A DNA stretch of 21,989 nt from Nitrospirota bacterium (lineage in GTDB: Bacteria; NPL-UPA2; JAADIA01), in assembly GCA_013151555.1 (NCBI GenBank), contig JAADIA010000036.1, forward strand, positions 1 to 21,989, given 5' to 3'. Of the stretch, positions 2,363-9,760 are shown piece by piece; within the stretch, counting starts at the first letter, position 1, and each line of letters opens with the position of its first letter. Both the position numbers and the translations under genes were made by a program. A model generated the notes under the pieces. The model saw only the letters and a list, made by a program, of their open reading frames with translations. It did no database searches and was not told where the DNA came from.

Positions 2363-2405
2363 AAAAAGCCAGAGGCTGAAAATATGCTTGTGGCTTTTTC
2401 TTTTT
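2363..2405 (+). terminator. Rho-independent terminator of the ABC transporter operon
   Basis: A 9-bp stem (AAAAAGCCA at 2363-2371, TGGCTTTTT at 2391-2399) is extended by a few inner pairs, and the T-rich run TTTTTCTTTTT follows. It lies between the last permease and the next gene. It overlaps the extra upstream ATG of the following frame (2384), which argues that the real start of that gene is downstream. Confidence 0.8.
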
Positions 2406-2428
2406 ATTCGATCCGGGAGGAAGGAAAA

Positions 2429-3115
2429 ATGAAAATAAGCTTGGGGATAATTATCCTGCTCATGACATTAATATCTTCCGCTTATGGGAAAGGGGAGAAA
2501 GCGGCTCAGGTAACCATAGAAGCTATGATGGTAGAAACTCCTGCAGACAATTTAAAGGAGAAATTAGGAACCCTCAAAGGAAGGGATGATTTTTTCAAGG
2601 ATCCCGGCAAGGTAAAGACGCTTATAGATATCCCTCGGATAATGACTTTGGCCGGGAGCGAGGGAAATATCCAAATTACCAAGCCCATATATTATATTGT
2701 GGATGCAAAAGTTGATGAGAATGGGGACATAATCTGTAAGTTAAAAAAGGAGATAACGGGAATTGTTTTTAAAGCCCTGCCCCTCATCTCAGAGGAAAAC
2801 CCTGAAGTTGTAACTGTGGATTATCAATTGGAAGTTAAAACTTTCATCAAAAGAGTTAATCCCCAAATGCCTGCGATTGCAGATATTCAGGAACTGAAAT
2901 CTTTAGGACGGCCGATAATAAATACGAGGAAGATAGGAGGAAAGATTATCTTAAAAAATGGAAGCACAATCGTCACAAGCAAAGTAACCGGACACAAACT
3001 TATAAGGGGCCTTTCTCCAGGAAATACTAAAAACGAATTAAGGGCTAAAACTACAGGAGTTGAAGAAAGCTCAAAAGATATCGTGGCGTTGACCTTGCTT
3101 ACTGCAAGATGGTAA
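2429..3115 (+). CDS. Exported secretin-domain-like protein (hypothetical)
   Basis: The predicted protein has 228 residues with a clear signal peptide (hydrophobic 5-17, cleavage near SAYG at 17-20). I start at ATG 2429 because GGGAGGAAGG precedes it at 2415-2424; an in-frame ATG at 2384 lies inside the upstream terminator hairpin. After the signal there is VTIEAMMVETPAD, then DIPRIMTLAGSEGNIQI (67-83), GIVFKALPLI and, near 170-184, a segment ending ILKNGSTIVTS. This order resembles the C-terminal beta-domain of type II/III secretins (the ...PR..T..G..A.I... and dG-T-vv-g motifs), but the protein is far shorter than a full secretin and lacks N-domains. It could be a secretin-derived periplasmic protein serving the nearby pilus cluster. 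I infer this from pattern; no close family was recognised with certainty. Confidence 0.6.
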   Translation: MKISLGIIILLMTLISSAYGKGEKAAQVTIEAMMVETPADNLKEKLGTLKGRDDFFKDPGKVKTLIDIPRIMTLAGSEGNIQITKPIYYIVDAKVDENGDIICKLKKEITGIVFKALPLISEENPEVVTVDYQLEVKTFIKRVNPQMPAIADIQELKSLGRPIINTRKIGGKIILKNGSTIVTSKVTGHKLIRGLSPGNTKNELRAKTTGVEESSKDIVALTLLTARW

Positions 3116-3243: not shown

Positions 3244-3684
3244 ATGCGAGTACTTGGTTTGGATGTTGGCGATAAGACTATTGGCGTAGCTATCAGCGAC
3301 GAGATGAGATGGACTGCTCAGGCCTTTGAGGTTATCCAAAGGAAGGGCTTGAGCCGGGATATCGAGAGGATAAAAGAAATTCTCAGCGAATACCAGGTCA
3401 AGGAAATTATCATTGGATTGCCTAAGAATATGAACGGGGAAGAAGGCCCCCAGGCGAAGAAGGTGCGGGAATTCCTCAAGAAACTACAGGCCCAGGTCGA
3501 TTTACCGATAAAAACCTGGGATGAGAGGCTTACCACTACCGCAGCGGAAAGGACTTTATTGGAAGGGGATTTATCCCGGGCAAAGCGAAAAAAGATAATA
3601 GATAAGGTTGCGGCCCAGGTTATCCTCCAGGGATATCTTGATAGTATTGGAACTCACAGTTTAGTTTCTCCCGTGGATAAGTAA
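3244..3684 (+). CDS. ruvX: Putative pre-16S rRNA nuclease / Holliday junction resolvase-like RuvX (YqgF)
   Basis: This 146-residue protein has the family's RNase H-like fold motifs: LDVGDKTIGVA at 6-16 with acidic D7, IIGLPKNMNG at 56-65, WDERLTT at 92-98 and DKVAAQVILQGYLD at 120-133. In known members the enzyme matures the 5' end of 16S rRNA and is related to Holliday junction resolvases; it acts in the cytoplasm. The length is normal. A TAGGAG at 3228-3233 lies ten bases before the ATG. It sits 18 bases upstream of the first GspF-family gene, so it may head that transcript, but the link is probably positional, not functional. The 128 bases before it hold no gene I can support. Confidence 0.93.
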   Translation: MRVLGLDVGDKTIGVAISDEMRWTAQAFEVIQRKGLSRDIERIKEILSEYQVKEIIIGLPKNMNGEEGPQAKKVREFLKKLQAQVDLPIKTWDERLTTTAAERTLLEGDLSRAKRKKIIDKVAAQVILQGYLDSIGTHSLVSPVDK

Positions 3685-3702: not shown

Positions 3703-4653
3703 ATGAAAGCTATAACCTACAGACAATTATCAACACTCCTTGATTCAGGAATGGGGATCTTGCAGGCGTTGGAAATATTATCACGTCACAAAAGGGGACC
3801 CACAAGAAGAATAATTTTTTCCATCCGCCGGTTGATTGAAAATGGTTCTTCTTTTACAGAGGCAGCCTCCGCACAGGATAGGTTCTTTACTCCTTTTGAG
3901 ATAGCCGTAATTCAGGCCGGAGAAAGATCCGGAAGGCTGGAAAACAATTTACGTTTTCTGGCTGATTATATGGAGAAGATATCCTCCTGGCGCAGGAAAA
4001 TAATTGGAGGGATGATCTATCCTGTAATTATCTTGCATGCTGCCATATTAATTCCTCCGGTACCCATATTGATTCTCCAGGGATCCATTCCGTATGTGGA
4101 TACGGTATCAAAAAGTTTACTCTGGATATATGGCATTGGTTTCGGAATTTTTCTTGCAGTAAAAATCAGCGGTCGTATCCCGGTGATATCATACCTGCGG
4201 GATTATTTGCTCCAGGCAATACCTATAATCGGGGGAATCTTGCGGCGTTTATCAATGGCAAGGTTTACAATTTCCTTATCCGGTTCCTATCGGGCCGGAA
4301 TTTCTATCAGGTCATCGATTATGTTTGCGGCGGCAGCCTGCGGCAATGAGTATATTAAACGGAGGATACTTAAACAAATCCGGATAGTTGAAACAGGCGG
4401 ACAAGTTACTGAAGTCTTGCAAAAATCGAAGGTATTTCCGGAAATGGTTATTGAGATGGTAAATACTGGGGAAGAGACCGGGGAAATGGAGAAAATGCTT
4501 TCTAAGGCCTCTTCCTACTGTGAAAATAAAGCTGAAGCTGCCATTACAATACTTAATAATACCCTTCCCGTAATTCTCTATCTTGCTGTTGCCCTTTACG
4601 TGGCCTTTAAAGTAATCAGTTTCTACGCCGGTTATTTCGCGACCTTGGAATAG
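3703..4653 (+). CDS. GspF/PilC-family inner-membrane platform protein, copy 1 (divergent, short)
   Basis: This 316-residue protein has two T2SSF domains. Domain 1 covers about 7-110 with the hallmark AGERSGRLENN at 72-82; domain 2 covers about 184-290 with NTGEETGEMEKML at 254-266. Membrane segments lie near 104-126, 138-156 and 287-308. It lacks the extra cytoplasmic N-terminal region that copy 2 has. GspF/PilC proteins form the inner-membrane platform through which the assembly ATPase drives pilin insertion. No good Shine-Dalgarno precedes ATG 3703; the N-terminal TYRQLSTLLDSG is needed for the domain, so I keep this start and suspect coupling to ruvX 18 bases upstream. It is the least conserved of three adjacent paralogues. 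Confidence 0.88.
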   Translation: MKAITYRQLSTLLDSGMGILQALEILSRHKRGPTRRIIFSIRRLIENGSSFTEAASAQDRFFTPFEIAVIQAGERSGRLENNLRFLADYMEKISSWRRKIIGGMIYPVIILHAAILIPPVPILILQGSIPYVDTVSKSLLWIYGIGFGIFLAVKISGRIPVISYLRDYLLQAIPIIGGILRRLSMARFTISLSGSYRAGISIRSSIMFAAAACGNEYIKRRILKQIRIVETGGQVTEVLQKSKVFPEMVIEMVNTGEETGEMEKMLSKASSYCENKAEAAITILNNTLPVILYLAVALYVAFKVISFYAGYFATLE

Positions 4654-4677
4654 GTTCCTGTACGGGAGGATAAGGAA

Positions 4678-5877
4678 ATGCCTCGATTTGAATACAGAGC
4701 AGTAGATTCTCATGGAAAAGAGGAGATGGGTATTACGGAAGCCCGTAATCCTCAGGAACTAGTTGCTAACTTGAGGGCAAAAGGACTTCAGGTCTCTTCA
4801 GTAAAAAGGGTGAGAGAAAGTGTGTTCACCCTTCTGGGAGCGAAAAGGAAAGTTAGTCTTGATGACCTTATGCTCTTTAACCGCCAACTGGCCTCGATGG
4901 TCAATACCGATTTGCCCCTTGTGCCCAGCCTGGAAGCTCTTTCCCAGGATATGAGAAAGGGAAGATTTAAGACCGTCATTGACCAGGTCAGGGGAGATAT
5001 AGAGAGAGGAACATCTTTAACGGAAGCTCTTTCCAAACATCCGGCCGTCTTTTCTGAATTTTATTTGAAGCTCATCGAGGCCGGCGAGAAGGGCGGAAAT
5101 TTACCCGGAATCCTCAACCAATTGGCCGATTACTCTCAGTCGATAGCTATGCTTAAGAGGAAGATCAGGGAAGCGCTTATCTATCCTCTTCTGGTGATCC
5201 TGGTAGCTGTGGCTGTCCTCTTTTTTCTCGTTCAATCCGTCATCCCGGCATTTGCCGAAATGTTTAGAGGAATTGAACCAAGTCTTCCTCCTCTAACGAG
5301 ATTCATTCTCCGCCTCCCTGTTTATTTCCCCTATCTGTTTCTGGGAACCTTAGGACTAATTTTTCTTATCTGGTTAGGGAAAAGCTGGCTGGTCCGGGGG
5401 GGAGGTTTATTCCTTGACCGGCTGAAACTTGGATTACCCCTTTTCGGCCCTTTCGTGAGAAATACAGCCATTGGAAACTTCTGTCGAACTTTAGGTATTC
5501 TTCTCCAAGCCGGAGTACCCCTGTTAACTGCTTTGGAGCTGGCTGGAACGGCTTCTTCGAACAGGCTCATTGAGATAGCCTCCCGGGAAATGGGAAAGGG
5601 CGTAAGCGAAGGAGAAAGAATGACTAAATCCATGAATAAGTTTGCTGTTTTTCCCCATACTTTGGTCTGGATGCTCTCCGTAGGCGAGCACCGGGGGAAA
5701 TTAGACGAATCCCTTCTCAGACTGGCCGGATTGTATAGAGAACAGATAGACAGAACGCTGAGAAGGATAGAGCGGACTCTGGCACCCCTTTGCATTGTAG
5801 GGATAGGTTTAATAGTGGGTTCAATTATCGTAGCTTTGTTTCAACCTCTCATTCAGATGGCCATAGCATTATCTTAA
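4678..5877 (+). CDS. gspF: GspF/PilC-family inner-membrane platform protein, copy 2 (canonical)
   Basis: This 399-residue protein has the full canonical layout: the N-terminal segment PRFEYRAVDSHGKE followed by an alanine/leucine-rich helix, T2SSF domain 1 at about 64-185 (AGEKGGNLPGILNQLADY at 135-152), membrane segments near 170-190 and 215-235, T2SSF domain 2 at about 262-385 (SVGEHRGKLDESL) and a last membrane helix near 370-392. Length and order match PilC/GspF of type IV pilus and type II secretion systems. GGGAGG and AAGGA lie just upstream of ATG 4678. It begins 24 bases after copy 1 and ends 24 bases before copy 3. Of the three paralogues this is the best candidate for the main platform protein. 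Confidence 0.93.
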   Translation: MPRFEYRAVDSHGKEEMGITEARNPQELVANLRAKGLQVSSVKRVRESVFTLLGAKRKVSLDDLMLFNRQLASMVNTDLPLVPSLEALSQDMRKGRFKTVIDQVRGDIERGTSLTEALSKHPAVFSEFYLKLIEAGEKGGNLPGILNQLADYSQSIAMLKRKIREALIYPLLVILVAVAVLFFLVQSVIPAFAEMFRGIEPSLPPLTRFILRLPVYFPYLFLGTLGLIFLIWLGKSWLVRGGGLFLDRLKLGLPLFGPFVRNTAIGNFCRTLGILLQAGVPLLTALELAGTASSNRLIEIASREMGKGVSEGERMTKSMNKFAVFPHTLVWMLSVGEHRGKLDESLLRLAGLYREQIDRTLRRIERTLAPLCIVGIGLIVGSIIVALFQPLIQMAIALS

Positions 5878-5901
5878 AACGAGCGCAAAGGTCAAAAGAA
5901 G

Positions 5902-6993
5902 ATGAATATCTGGACTCTGATTTATTTTTTCCTGCCCTGGGGAAGAAAAAAAAAGCGAGAGAGTATCATCTTTTTTACCGAACAACTAATTGCCGTGACA
6001 GAGGAGAACTTACCCTTGGTTCCCGGCCTGAAGATGATAGCTTCCGATACGAAACAGGTATGGTTTCGCCACCTTATTCAAGCCGTGGCCAGGGATATGG
6101 AGGAAGGCAAGTCTCTTTCCGAAAGCCTTTCCCGCTGGCGAAGGATATTCCCCCGGCTTTATCTTAAGATGGTGGATATCGGAGAGCGAAACGGCAATTT
6201 AAGCCAGCTGCTCCGACACCTCCTTGACCATTTCCAGAGGATGGATAAGTTTAGAGAGAAGATGAGAGAGCTATTATTTTATCCGGGCATTCCTCTTCTT
6301 TACATATTCTCTATATTACCCATCTTTATCAAACTTGTCTTTCCTGTCTTCAGAAAAATGTTTACTGATATGGAGACAGGATTACCTGCTTCTACCAGGT
6401 ACTTGATAGCGGCATCAAATTGGCTAACAACCAATAGTGATATGTTCTCCCTGGGGTTAATAATTCTGCTCTTTGTCCTGGGAACAATCAATCTCCTGGC
6501 CAAGAAGACTTCCCTGGCTCGATTACTATTGGACAGACTTTATCTCGGGTTACCGGTTGTGGGACCCCTGGTAAGGGAGGTAAGCCTGGTGAGATTTTCT
6601 CATACCCTGGGGACGCTCTTAGAGAGCGGCGTCCCTTTGGATGAGGCCTTAGAGACAACCGGGGAAGTACCCATGAACAGACTCCTGCAGCGGGAAACGA
6701 AAAGGATGGCCGGAGAGATAAGAGAGGGGGAGAGATTCTCCCGTCTCTTACCGGGGAGAAAACTTTTCCCTTCCACTTTTACCTGGATAACTGCCGTGGG
6801 AGAGGGACGAGGCGTTCTGGAAAAGTCGCTTTTTCAAGCCGGAGATTTTTACCGCCTGAGGTTTGAAGCAGACTTAACGAGAATTGTAGCTACGAGCATG
6901 CCGGTCTTTGTTCTTATAGAAGGAGGGCTGGTGGCCTTTATTGCTATAGGAATGTTCGCGGCTCTGGTAGCTATGGCCAACAGTTTAATGTAA
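5902..6993 (+). CDS. GspF/PilC-family inner-membrane platform protein, copy 3
   Basis: This 363-residue protein starts with a short hydrophobic and basic stretch (MNIWTLIYFFLPWGRKKK), then T2SSF domain 1 with the TEENLPLVPGLKMIA motif, DIGERNGNLSQLLRHLLDH and a membrane segment after FYPGIPLL; domain 2 carries LVRFSHTLGTLLESGVPLDEAL and TAVGEGRGVLEKSL. It shares phrases with copy 2 (NTDLPLVP versus EENLPLVP; GVPLLTALELAG versus GVPLDEALETTG), so the two are paralogues that have diverged widely. The cytoplasmic N-domain of copy 2 is missing. The Shine-Dalgarno is weak (AAAGG). It ends nine bases before the ATPase gene and is certainly in the same transcript. Its partner role (a hetero-oligomeric platform or a second system) is not known. 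Confidence 0.9.
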   Translation: MNIWTLIYFFLPWGRKKKRESIIFFTEQLIAVTEENLPLVPGLKMIASDTKQVWFRHLIQAVARDMEEGKSLSESLSRWRRIFPRLYLKMVDIGERNGNLSQLLRHLLDHFQRMDKFREKMRELLFYPGIPLLYIFSILPIFIKLVFPVFRKMFTDMETGLPASTRYLIAASNWLTTNSDMFSLGLIILLFVLGTINLLAKKTSLARLLLDRLYLGLPVVGPLVREVSLVRFSHTLGTLLESGVPLDEALETTGEVPMNRLLQRETKRMAGEIREGERFSRLLPGRKLFPSTFTWITAVGEGRGVLEKSLFQAGDFYRLRFEADLTRIVATSMPVFVLIEGGLVAFIAIGMFAALVAMANSLM

Positions 6994-7002
6994 GGGAGAA
7001 TA

Positions 7003-8253
7003 ATGGTTAATTTAACTGCTATCGCCGGTGAATTGAAGAAGATGCAGGTAGAGAAGGAAACCCAGATAAGTGATCTGGTAGCTTTCCTTTTCCAGCAAGC
7101 TGTTGAGCAACGAGCCAGCGATATTTACTTAGAGCCTCTGGACGCGGTTATATCTATCCGGTACCGGATTGATGGGATGCTGCACGATGTGGCGGAACTT
7201 CCTCTGGAGCTACAGGAGAAACTGGTATCCCGGATTAAGGTCCTGGCCAATCTAATTGTTTATAGGAGAGATATTCCCCAGGATGGCCATATTACCAGAG
7301 GTTTCCGGGAAGATGGTGTTGACCTGAGAGTAACCACATTTCCTACCATTCACGGGGAGAAAGTACTCATTCGCATCTTTAATTCCAGCCAGGTTCTCTT
7401 TAACCTCGGAGAATTAGGTTTCTCTCCCGATACTGAAGAGGAACTGAGAAAGCTTATCTTCCGGCCTCAGGGGACAATACTTTTAACCGGACCGAGCAGC
7501 AGCGGGAAAACGACGACCATTTATGCAGCCCTGAAGGAGATCGCCAGGGAAAAGAGGGATATTGCCAATATAGTAACCATAGAAGACCCCGTGGAGTATA
7601 ATCTAAAGACGATAAGCCAGACTCAGGTTAACCTCAGTGCCGGCCTTACCTTTGCCCGAAGCTTGAGATCTATCCTCAGGCAGGACCCGGAAGTAATTAT
7701 GCTGGGAGAGATCAGGGATGTGGAGACAGCCGCTATTGCCATCCAGGCCGGATTGACCGGCCACTTAGTAATCAGCACTATTCATAGCGGAACCGCCACC
7801 GGAGTCTTTGCGCGATTAATCGCTATGGAGATAGAACCTTTTCTTATTGCTTCCTCGCTAAGCGGAGTCCTGGCCCAGAGGTTGGTCCGGGTTATCTGTC
7901 CGAAATGTAAAGAATCCTATCAACCGAGCCGGGCATTAATAGGGGCGCTTGGTTTAAAGAAGATATCTTCTCCTACTTTTTTTAAAGGCCGGGGCTGTCC
8001 GGAATGCTCCCGGACCGGCTATCGAGGGCGAATAGCCATTACTGAACTCCTAACCGTAAACGAAAAATTCAGAGAAGCTATCCTCGGGAAATCATCCACC
8101 ACGGCCCTGGACAAAGTAGCTGAGGAAATAGGGATGAGAAGCCTGAGGGAAGATGGCTTAAGAAAAGTAGAGCAGGGAATAACCACCCTTGAAGAACTTC
8201 AGCGAGTAATTGTTTCCGAGGAGGGTATGGATATTGAAGATAAACAAGAATAA
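7003..8253 (+). CDS. gspE: GspE/PilB-type secretion/pilus assembly ATPase, short form
   Basis: This 416-residue cytoplasmic hexameric ATPase powers pilin or pseudopilin polymerisation. Visible motifs are Walker A GPSSSGKTTT (163-172), Asp box TIEDPVEY (202-209), Walker B VIMLGE (231-236), His box TGHLVISTIHS (252-262) and a four-cysteine zinc site, CPKC (289-292) and CPEC (332-335). All catalytic features are intact. GspE/PilB proteins usually have 500 or more residues; here the N-terminal MshEN/N1 domain is absent and the protein begins almost directly with the N2 domain (ASDIYLEPLD at 38-47). AAGGGAG stands just upstream of ATG 7003, so the short start is well supported. PilT is unlikely because of the CxxC pair and TIEDPVEY context. 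The last 20 bases overlap the next pilin gene. Confidence 0.94.
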   Translation: MVNLTAIAGELKKMQVEKETQISDLVAFLFQQAVEQRASDIYLEPLDAVISIRYRIDGMLHDVAELPLELQEKLVSRIKVLANLIVYRRDIPQDGHITRGFREDGVDLRVTTFPTIHGEKVLIRIFNSSQVLFNLGELGFSPDTEEELRKLIFRPQGTILLTGPSSSGKTTTIYAALKEIAREKRDIANIVTIEDPVEYNLKTISQTQVNLSAGLTFARSLRSILRQDPEVIMLGEIRDVETAAIAIQAGLTGHLVISTIHSGTATGVFARLIAMEIEPFLIASSLSGVLAQRLVRVICPKCKESYQPSRALIGALGLKKISSPTFFKGRGCPECSRTGYRGRIAITELLTVNEKFREAILGKSSTTALDKVAEEIGMRSLREDGLRKVEQGITTLEELQRVIVSEEGMDIEDKQE

Positions 8254-8692
8254 AGGGTTTGCCTTAATAGAACTGCTGACCGCTTTAGCCATTACCGGCA
8301 TTGCCCTGGGAGCTCTCTTCTCTATCTTTTATTATGGGCTCCGACAGGTCAGGAGCATATATCATTTTTCCCTCGCTAATACTATCGCTCAGACGGAGAT
8401 AGAAACTGTCAGGAGCATCCCTTTTTCTCAGCTTAATAACGGGAAAGATGTTCCCTTTATAGGAGGGGCAAAAGGTCTGGAGGAGCTTAAAGATGCAGAA
8501 GGGATATTAAGCATCGAAGATTATCAAGGAAGGGTAGGGGAGATAAAAAAAGTTACTGTTTGGGTAAGATGGCGGGAAGTTAAAGGAAGCAAAAGAAAGG
8601 TTACCTTTACCACCTTAGTAGCTAACCGGGATTATTCGCTCCCCCGTGAAACAAAGGGGACTGTCCCAGATTTACGGAGCGATAGCTCGTAG
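8234..8692 (+). CDS. Prepilin-like protein, GspI/PilV type
   Basis: The predicted protein has 152 residues from TTG 8234. GAGGAGGG at 8218-8225, inside the ATPase gene, sits eight bases before this TTG and gives a classic short basic leader MKINKNKG cut before FALIELLTALA, with Glu at mature position 5. An in-frame ATG at 8210 would give a longer leader and has no such site. The N-terminal hydrophobic helix is followed by a GspI-like body (FSLANTIAQTEIETVRSIPF). Minor pseudopilins of this type prime pilus assembly in the inner membrane. The final residues after about SLPRE are encoded by a palindromic repeat (8656-8708), so the natural tail may have been extended by insertion. Confidence 0.85.
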   Translation: MKINKNKGFALIELLTALAITGIALGALFSIFYYGLRQVRSIYHFSLANTIAQTEIETVRSIPFSQLNNGKDVPFIGGAKGLEELKDAEGILSIEDYQGRVGEIKKVTVWVRWREVKGSKRKVTFTTLVANRDYSLPRETKGTVPDLRSDSS

Positions 8693-8817: not shown

Positions 8818-9336
8818 ATGATAATAAAGAAAAACAACGGGATGACCCTGATAGAAGTTATTGTATATGTAGCTATCTTTACTTTCGTTATTGGTGCTAT
8901 CTATTCTATCTATTATAATTCAGCAAAGGTTGCTAAGGCCGGAAATAATTACCTCTATAATTTACGTTACACTGATTTGGCTATCTCTCTAATGCAAAGA
9001 GATATCAGAGAAGCTAAGGAGGTTATTCCCTCCAGAGGGAACTTTGTCACCGGAAAAGATACCCTTATTTTAAAGAAAGGAACAAAGAGAAGCTATCTTG
9101 TCTATCACTTTGATAAAGAAAAAGAAGAATTGGAAAGGTCCGTCATCTCCGCAGAAGGGACCTCTTCCGAGCGAGCTATAGGGGCTGATCTCCAGGGAGT
9201 CAAGTTCAGCTATGACCGGCAACCCCTCTCCGATTCCCACTTGATCACGGTAGAGTTGATTCTAAAGAAAGGAGCCCTGAAGAAAAGGATAGTGACCTCT
9301 TTTCCTTTCTCAGTTGCTTTGCGAAGCAAACGGTGA
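8818..9336 (+). CDS. Prepilin-like protein, GspJ type
   Basis: This 172-residue protein has a leader MIIKKNNG that fits prepilin peptidase cleavage before MTLIEVIVYVAIF, with Glu at mature position 5, then a hydrophobic helix to about residue 30. The body DLAISLMQRDIREAKEVIPS and the beta-rich remainder ending in VALRSKR are like GspJ/PulJ minor pseudopilins, which sit at the pilus tip with GspI and GspK. The Shine-Dalgarno is poor (GAGG 11 bases upstream of ATG 8818). Gene order I-J-K after the ATPase matches type II secretion. J versus generic minor pilin is uncertain. Confidence 0.82.
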   Translation: MIIKKNNGMTLIEVIVYVAIFTFVIGAIYSIYYNSAKVAKAGNNYLYNLRYTDLAISLMQRDIREAKEVIPSRGNFVTGKDTLILKKGTKRSYLVYHFDKEKEELERSVISAEGTSSERAIGADLQGVKFSYDRQPLSDSHLITVELILKKGALKKRIVTSFPFSVALRSKR

Positions 9337-9340
9337 TATA

Positions 9341-9760
9341 GTGAAGAAATTCTTGAAGACTGGACAGGGAAGTGCGCTTATTACAGCGCTAATATTTATA
9401 ACTATCCTGGGAGTGTTGGCAAGCGCTTTTCTTTACAATATTCTGGCAACCAATTCTTCTTTTAAGAGAACCTCTAATTTGCAGGTAGCTTTCAACTTAG
9501 CTGAAGCCGGAATAGATAAAGCCATAGCCGAACTGAGCCGTTCTTCATCTACTTATTCGGGTGAAGAAGATACTCCCCTGGGCGAGGGAACCTTCAGCGT
9601 ATCTGTATTAACATCAGAGAAAGAAGCCGGGGAGATGTTGATCATCTCTACCGGATATGTTCCTCATTCTCCTGGACCTAAGGCAAAGAGGACGGTGAAG
9701 GCAACCGTCCGGCGCCAGGATAGTTCTTTAGTAATTACTTCCTGGCGGGAGGTTAGATAG
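9341..9760 (+). CDS. PilX/GspK-like minor pilin
   Basis: From GTG 9341 the product has 139 residues, beginning (V)KKFLKTGQG, then SALITALIFITILGVLASAF. This is a prepilin-like leader and helix but with Thr instead of Glu at mature position 5, a known trait of GspK. The following NLQVAFNLAEAGIDKAIAEL matches the N-terminal region of PilX/GspK proteins. A longer in-frame start (9314) would lie inside the previous gene. The GTG is four bases after the previous stop, so coupling is likely. At 139 residues it is much shorter than true GspK (about 300), so PilX-like is the safer name. It is the last gene of the assembly cluster. Confidence 0.78.
   Translation: MKKFLKTGQGSALITALIFITILGVLASAFLYNILATNSSFKRTSNLQVAFNLAEAGIDKAIAELSRSSSTYSGEEDTPLGEGTFSVSVLTSEKEAGEMLIISTGYVPHSPGPKAKRTVKATVRRQDSSLVITSWREVR

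Follow-up and report, generated by a model that had tools for sequence, protein, structure and literature searches.

Three adjacent GspF/PilC-type platform genes beside a motor ATPase without the N1E domain, and comparable clusters in other phyla

Why should a single motor ATPase be accompanied by three different platform proteins? The question is raised by a cluster in which three genes for proteins of the GspF/PilC type (here F1, F2 and F3) stand in a row directly before the gene for an extension ATPase. The cluster lies in the window, i.e. the whole stretch of 21,989 nucleotides analysed here, which is contig C47 of a 1.81 Mb genome in 99 contigs; nine genomes were sampled from its phylum. 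Of the core parts of type IV filament machines, the platform has been described as the least well characterised, and there is debate over its symmetry, with a trimer suggested by cross-linking of PulF (PMC10790770, PMC10191384). The initial annotation had noted three adjacent platform genes of 316, 399 and 363 residues, and these ORFs are indeed present. The features are as follows (identities refer to counterparts in G004, an independent MAG from a different family of the same order):

2384..3115, + strand: secretin-like fragment, 243 aa (PF00263, 29 bits over positions 11-118 of 169)
3244..3684, + strand: RuvX/YqgF, upstream neighbour and synteny anchor (PF03652, 168.7 bits)
3703..4653, + strand: F1, short platform protein, 316 aa (PF00482 twice, whole-protein E 3.6e-46)
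4678..5877, + strand: F2, full-length GspF/PilC-type platform protein, 399 aa (PF00482 twice, E 2.4e-52)
5902..6993, + strand: F3, platform paralogue of F2, 363 aa (PF00482 twice, E 2.3e-40)
7003..8253, + strand: GspE/PilB-type extension ATPase, 416 aa (PF00437, 395 bits)
8210..8692, + strand: prepilin-like protein, GspI/PilV type (PF07963; GFALIE motif; 55% identical in G004)
8818..9336, + strand: prepilin-like protein, GspJ/PilW type by position (PF07963; GMTLIE motif; 60% identical in G004)
9314..9760, + strand: small PilX/GspK-like protein, so assigned by position, with an N-terminal hydrophobic helix (61% identical to the protein at the same position in G004; no Pfam match)

The gaps between F1 and F2, F2 and F3, and F3 and the ATPase gene measure 24, 24 and 9 bases. 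Since successive genes from RuvX to the ATPase are 9-24 bases apart and the ATPase gene runs into the first pilin-like ORF, RuvX, the three F genes, the ATPase and the pilin-like genes are likely, from their coordinates, to form a single transcription unit. The stand-alone protein at 2384-3115 has about 110 secretin-domain residues, and a normal outer-membrane secretin would be longer; whether it belongs to the platform cluster is uncertain.

Anatomy of the three platform proteins

F1, F2 and F3 are intact adjacent genes, each encoding two PF00482 (T2SSF) domains, and a six-frame scan of the genome agrees. Their matches reach 138-177 bits against a curated cut-off of 25.2 bits, which bears out the earlier assignment of two such domains to every copy, the shorter first and third included; all three score below the equivalog cut-offs for GspF and PilC. 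An N-domain is found in F2 only, which aligns to the GspF/PilC models from its N-terminus (GspF, 310.8 bits). The alignment of F3 begins at about position 60 of GspF and that of F1 directly at cytoplasmic domain 1, so that copies 1 and 3 do lack the N-terminal region, as had been proposed. Pairwise identity is 35% for F2 and F3 and 24% for F1 with either of them.

AlphaFold (AF2) monomer models of F1 and F3, computed from shallow four-sequence alignments, have mean pLDDT values of 81 and 77, respectively, and both are all-helical with the expected long membrane helices. The F1 model has two helical cytoplasmic domains, for which the Foldseek matches are the solved cytoplasmic domains of EpsF, OutF and PilC; by this prediction F1 has the fold of a complete platform protein.

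In 42 reference F proteins the Tyr-Pro of TMS1 is invariant, and the Glu of TMS3 is found in 98% and is followed by an invariant Pro. The corresponding PulF residues Y168 and E370 oppose each other at the constriction of the trimeric channel (PMC10790770). The TMS1 Tyr-Pro and the GE..G motifs are retained in F1, F2 and F3, and the TMS3 Glu (PulF E370) is absent from all three: the Glu-Pro site reads Ala-Pro in F2, Met-Pro in F3 and, as aligned, Leu-Pro in F1, retention of the Pro being counted for F2 and F3. The F2 of G004 (72% identical) ends before this site. Loss of the Glu, a conserved feature and no strict criterion, lowers the claim of canonical function and leaves that of homology intact. 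F2 keeps 49 of 58 conserved columns and F1 keeps 34, the reference mean being 54.6; F1 also has a shortened TMS1-TMS2 loop. Several departures common to F2 and F3 are missing in F1 (e.g. Gln for Glu at F2 position 154), which is consistent with a separate origin of F1.

The motor and its known relatives

The window ATPase has, as read from its sequence, a Walker A/P-loop and two CxxC pairs, as in extension ATPases, and its best model is GspE (485 bits, compared with 41 bits for the TadA family). It is devoid of the N1E domain (MshEN, PF05157), its alignment beginning at GspE model position 102. The initial annotation had not foreseen this absence, nor the distinct history of F1 or the recurrence of the arrangement in other phyla described below. 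N1E usually makes contact with PilM or GspL of the inner-membrane complex; a motor that lacks the domain suggests a machine in which this complex is missing, and the window contains no gene of the PilM/GspL type. Elsewhere in the same genome, N1E-bearing ATPases and secretins are present: there are four other F loci, each with a single F beside its own GspE-type ATPase of 564-594 aa, and MshEN is found in the four that were scanned. A further ATPase without MshEN (487 aa scanned) lies on contig C97 of this genome with no F nearby, and on contig C82 (L103, 9723-10974) an F gene is split into two ORFs of 257 and 162 aa, probably by a frameshift.

Like GspF of type II secretion systems and PilC of type IVa pili, the window proteins combine two PF00482 domains, helical cytoplasmic domains, three membrane helices and the TMS1 Tyr-Pro; they differ in that three paralogues accompany one ATPase, two are without the N-domain and none has the TMS3 Glu. 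A type II secretion system, defined by the full GspC-M set and a secretin, was rejected: the Pfam scan of the cluster found no GspC, G, H, L or M, and the secretin is represented by the fragment of about 110 domain residues only. Neither PilM/N/O/P/Q nor a major pilin of the type IVa pilus was found among the Pfam-scanned ORFs of the window.

Tad/Epd systems, with TadB and TadC, resemble the window in having more than one platform gene per ATPase and provide a precedent for a mixed platform (PMC6668835, PMC10790770). TadB and TadC, however, have one T2SSF domain each and arose by gene fission (PMC6668835), whereas the window proteins are two-domain and F2 and F3 go back to duplication; a Tad pilus, or a split of the Tad type, is ruled out by the two T2SSF domains per protein and the GspE-like ATPase. 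PulF forms a trimer, its N-domain can be dispensed with, and for TadB/TadC a trimer of heterodimers has been proposed (PMC10790770).

The ComG competence pilus is similar to the window cluster in its N1E-less ATPase, its platform without an N-domain and the small number of other parts. Its single platform and its major pilin ComGC contrast with the three platforms of the window, where no major pilin was identified and no ComGC was found among the proteins scanned. A ComG pilus was rejected, as the cut-offs are missed (ComGA 238.5 against 300, ComGB at most 138 against 240). In this system ComGA, an ATPase without N1E, is paired with one F, ComGB; the component table of PMC10191384 has it likewise. 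The open papers searched for tandem or multiple PilC/GspF genes yielded nothing of relevance except the Tad and archaeal cases, and clusters such as the present one are not described there. Clusters with several F genes belong to poorly sampled lineages, where annotation pipelines are expected to repeat 'type II secretion system F family protein' for each gene.

Conservation and history of the cluster

G004 retains F3-ATPase-pilin-pilin-PilX in this order on a single contig, and its F2 orthologue is found on a separate contig of 3 kb, with a short F gene upstream of it. Identities between the window and G004 amount to 72% for F2, 60% for F3, 65-79% for pieces of the ATPase and 55-61% for the pilins. 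An assembly artefact in the window is ruled out by this recurrence of the F3-ATPase-pilin order in an independent MAG. The ATPase gene of G004 (L098, 10449-11554) has about 47 codons deleted before the P-loop with a change of frame, which is either an assembly error or a real loss (pseudogene). The short F and F2 of G004 are separated by an inserted, opposite-strand gene for an AbiEii-like nucleotidyltransferase (L099, 1424-2439).

A tree of 50 F proteins recovers the F2 pair and the F3 pair of the window and G004 as sisters (100/99), with F3 on a long stem branch. The duplication thus predates the split of the two families, and F2 and F3 are, to judge from the tree, tandem duplicates from an ancestor of the order. 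The tree and the identities of 24-35% rule out a recent duplication, in line with the earlier judgement that the three copies are far diverged. F3, in an unchanged gene order, still has 60% identity across the two families and is therefore under selection. A search of the genome contigs with F3 matched G004 and one distant F only, and among the nine genomes of the phylum the multi-F arrangement occurs in the window genome and, in part, in G004; the triplet is hence no routine feature of this lineage.

The history of F1 differs. Its positional counterpart is the short F, which in G003 (331 residues) ends the order RuvX, Mut7-C-like gene, PilT, PilT, short F; the RuvX proteins of this locus and the window are 72% identical. 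F1 is 30% identical to the short F, whereas its window neighbours are 55-79% identical to their counterparts and the short F proteins of G003 and G004 are 91% identical to each other. Both F1 and the G003 short F have the shortened TMS1-TMS2 loop and FYxG at the end of TMS3. The position of F1 shifts with sampling: one tree pairs it weakly with the G003 short F (85/89), and in a larger tree the two do not group. F1 is either a very fast orthologue of the short F or an unrelated F at the same place.

Multi-platform clusters in other phyla and the case for a mixed platform

A PF00482 search in 51 genomes from 51 other families revealed adjacent two-domain F genes in three, namely G037 (an N1E-less ATPase followed by three F genes), G020 (two F genes on each side of one N1E-less ATPase, then two pilin-like genes; L138, 7936-14002) and G012 (two F genes without an adjacent ATPase). 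The four F genes of G020 are two copies of one alpha-beta pair; one of them has a single PF00482 stretch by Pfam, yet the whole F profile is matched. With the G020 ATPase as query over 40 genomes of its phylum, six more N1E-less ATPases were found, each followed by exactly two F genes and several by pilin-like genes. In the two other genomes of the phylum of G037 no N1E-less counterpart of its triplet ATPase was found, and none of the ORFs beside the G037 cluster itself was recognised as pilin-like.

These clusters (G037, G020 and the six G020 relatives) thus resemble the window in combining an ATPase that lacks N1E with two to four F genes, and pilin-like ORFs are common to the window, G020 and several of its relatives. 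Their F sequences, however, are no specific relatives of those in the window, and most keep the TMS3 Glu-Pro in at least one F, another having lost the Glu, the Pro or both (G098 keeps Glu-Pro in both). The multi-F clusters of other phyla appear from their sequences to have arisen independently of that in the window. Within the phylum of G020 the two members of an F pair fall in different clades, each spanning several genomes, in two separate groups (G020, G090 and G091; G080, G094 and G095, with G098 less firmly). Two distinct F proteins long kept side by side with one motor are the pattern expected of obligate partners.

A census of 63 ATPase loci, with F genes counted if on the same strand and within 3 kb of the ATPase, links the two peculiarities. 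ATPases with a short N-terminus (an extension of at most about 100 residues, N1E being called by length for most loci) have at least two F genes in 9/15 cases, exactly one in none and no F in six, whereas at least two F genes occur at 0/48 loci with a long, N1E-bearing ATPase; a single F is indeed usual elsewhere, as had been assumed. Fisher's test gives p = 2e-7, a value that ignores kinship and how the loci were found, the sampling being partly biased in that G020-phylum loci were chosen by similarity to the ATPase of the four-F cluster. When the loci are grouped manually into about eight N1E-less lineages and set against 30 genomes, p is ~0.001, and restricted to the phyla of the window and G037 it is ~0.05. 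By Pfam, the ATPases of the window, G037, G020 and four G020 relatives were confirmed to lack MshEN, and four long ATPases to have it.

The reading we prefer, to which we give about an even chance, is that F2 and F3 co-assemble as a mixed platform on one N1E-less motor, the whole being a compact type IV filament module. It is suggested by the retention of both genes in two families near their ATPase and pilins and by the co-occurrence of N1E-less ATPases with multiple F genes. By analogy with PulF the platform would be a trimer; a platform trimer presents six cytoplasmic domains to six ATPase subunits (PMC10790770, PMC10191384), and a mixed F2/F3 trimer would likewise fit a homohexameric motor, as proposed for TadB/TadC. 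Its six domains may dock on the N2 domains of the ATPase encoded next door, and the docked platform would lift pilin-like subunits out of the membrane. More speculatively, the extra specialised F subunits may replace part of the anchoring lost with N1E. We infer this compensation, as we do co-assembly and stoichiometry. Against the reading, ComGA with its single ComGB indicates that loss of N1E needs no second F, and the six F-less N1E-less ATPases of the census point the same way; the low identity of F1 to its positional counterpart also counts against it. F1 would be either a third subunit of the mixed platform or the rapidly evolving remnant of an adjacent cassette linked to PilT. The hetero-oligomeric platform of the initial annotation thus survives as the best reading for F2 and F3.

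A broader version, in which an N1E-less homohexameric motor with an asymmetric platform of two or three two-domain F proteins constitutes a recurrent undescribed class, F1:F2:F3 possibly forming one trimer that replaces the PilM/GspL link, seems to us doubtful. The multi-platform arrangement itself recurs and consists wholly of familiar parts; how F1 fits in is uncertain. Multi-platform clusters in at least two other phyla hint at platforms of mixed subunits; a natural machine whose platform subunits differ would make every ring position open to separate mutation, as in the split TadB/TadC, and the tie to N1E loss yields a concrete prediction on the role of N1E.

Another possibility, to be taken seriously if on the unlikely side, is that F1 serves as a retraction-type platform with a link to PilT, independent of the F2-F3-ATPase unit that it happens to adjoin. 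The gene order of G003 and the short F upstream of F2 in G004 speak for it, as do the weak tree pair and the common FYxG; F1 has no PilT neighbour in the window, however, and it and the short F are 30% identical and do not group in the larger tree. F1 could also be a decaying relic (F3 less likely so), leaving F2 as the sole working platform. The number of conserved columns lost from F1, its flat codon-position GC (0.45, 0.41, 0.42), the want of a clear ribosome-binding site and the low identity to its counterpart would fit decay, as would the long stem branch of F3. Yet the frames of all three genes are open over 316-399 codons, a complete platform fold is predicted for F1, and F3 is well conserved, with its gene order, across the two families; we regard decay as improbable.

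We think it equally improbable that F1, F2 and F3 are interchangeable homotrimers alternating on the same ATPase for different pilins or conditions. None of them lacks a cytoplasmic domain or one of the three membrane helices, so that each could work alone, and for archaeal ATPase/TadC modules interactions with different sets of pilins have been reported (PMC4858521). The cluster, however, encodes a single small pilin-like set, the other F loci of the genome adjoin their own ATPases, and the co-carriage of two F clades in several genomes of the G020 phylum is unexpected for free alternatives. The earlier suggestion of separate systems sharing one ATPase is less supported for similar reasons, given those self-contained F loci and the retention of F2-F3 with ATPase and pilins.

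Some isolated genes were also encountered. Orphan short F genes without an ATPase or pilin neighbour occur in G032 (L140, 6697-7737) and G042 (L141, 1268-2326). In G078, from a distant phylum, an F-less N1E-less ATPase is followed by RuvX (PF03652), the neighbour of F1 in the window (L197, 6388-8264), which may be chance. N1E-less GspE-type ATPases with no F nearby in G074 (L190, 4840-7447) and G063 (L192, 1510-4074) directly adjoin, according to the translations, a gene for an ECF-type sigma factor and a probable anti-sigma gene.
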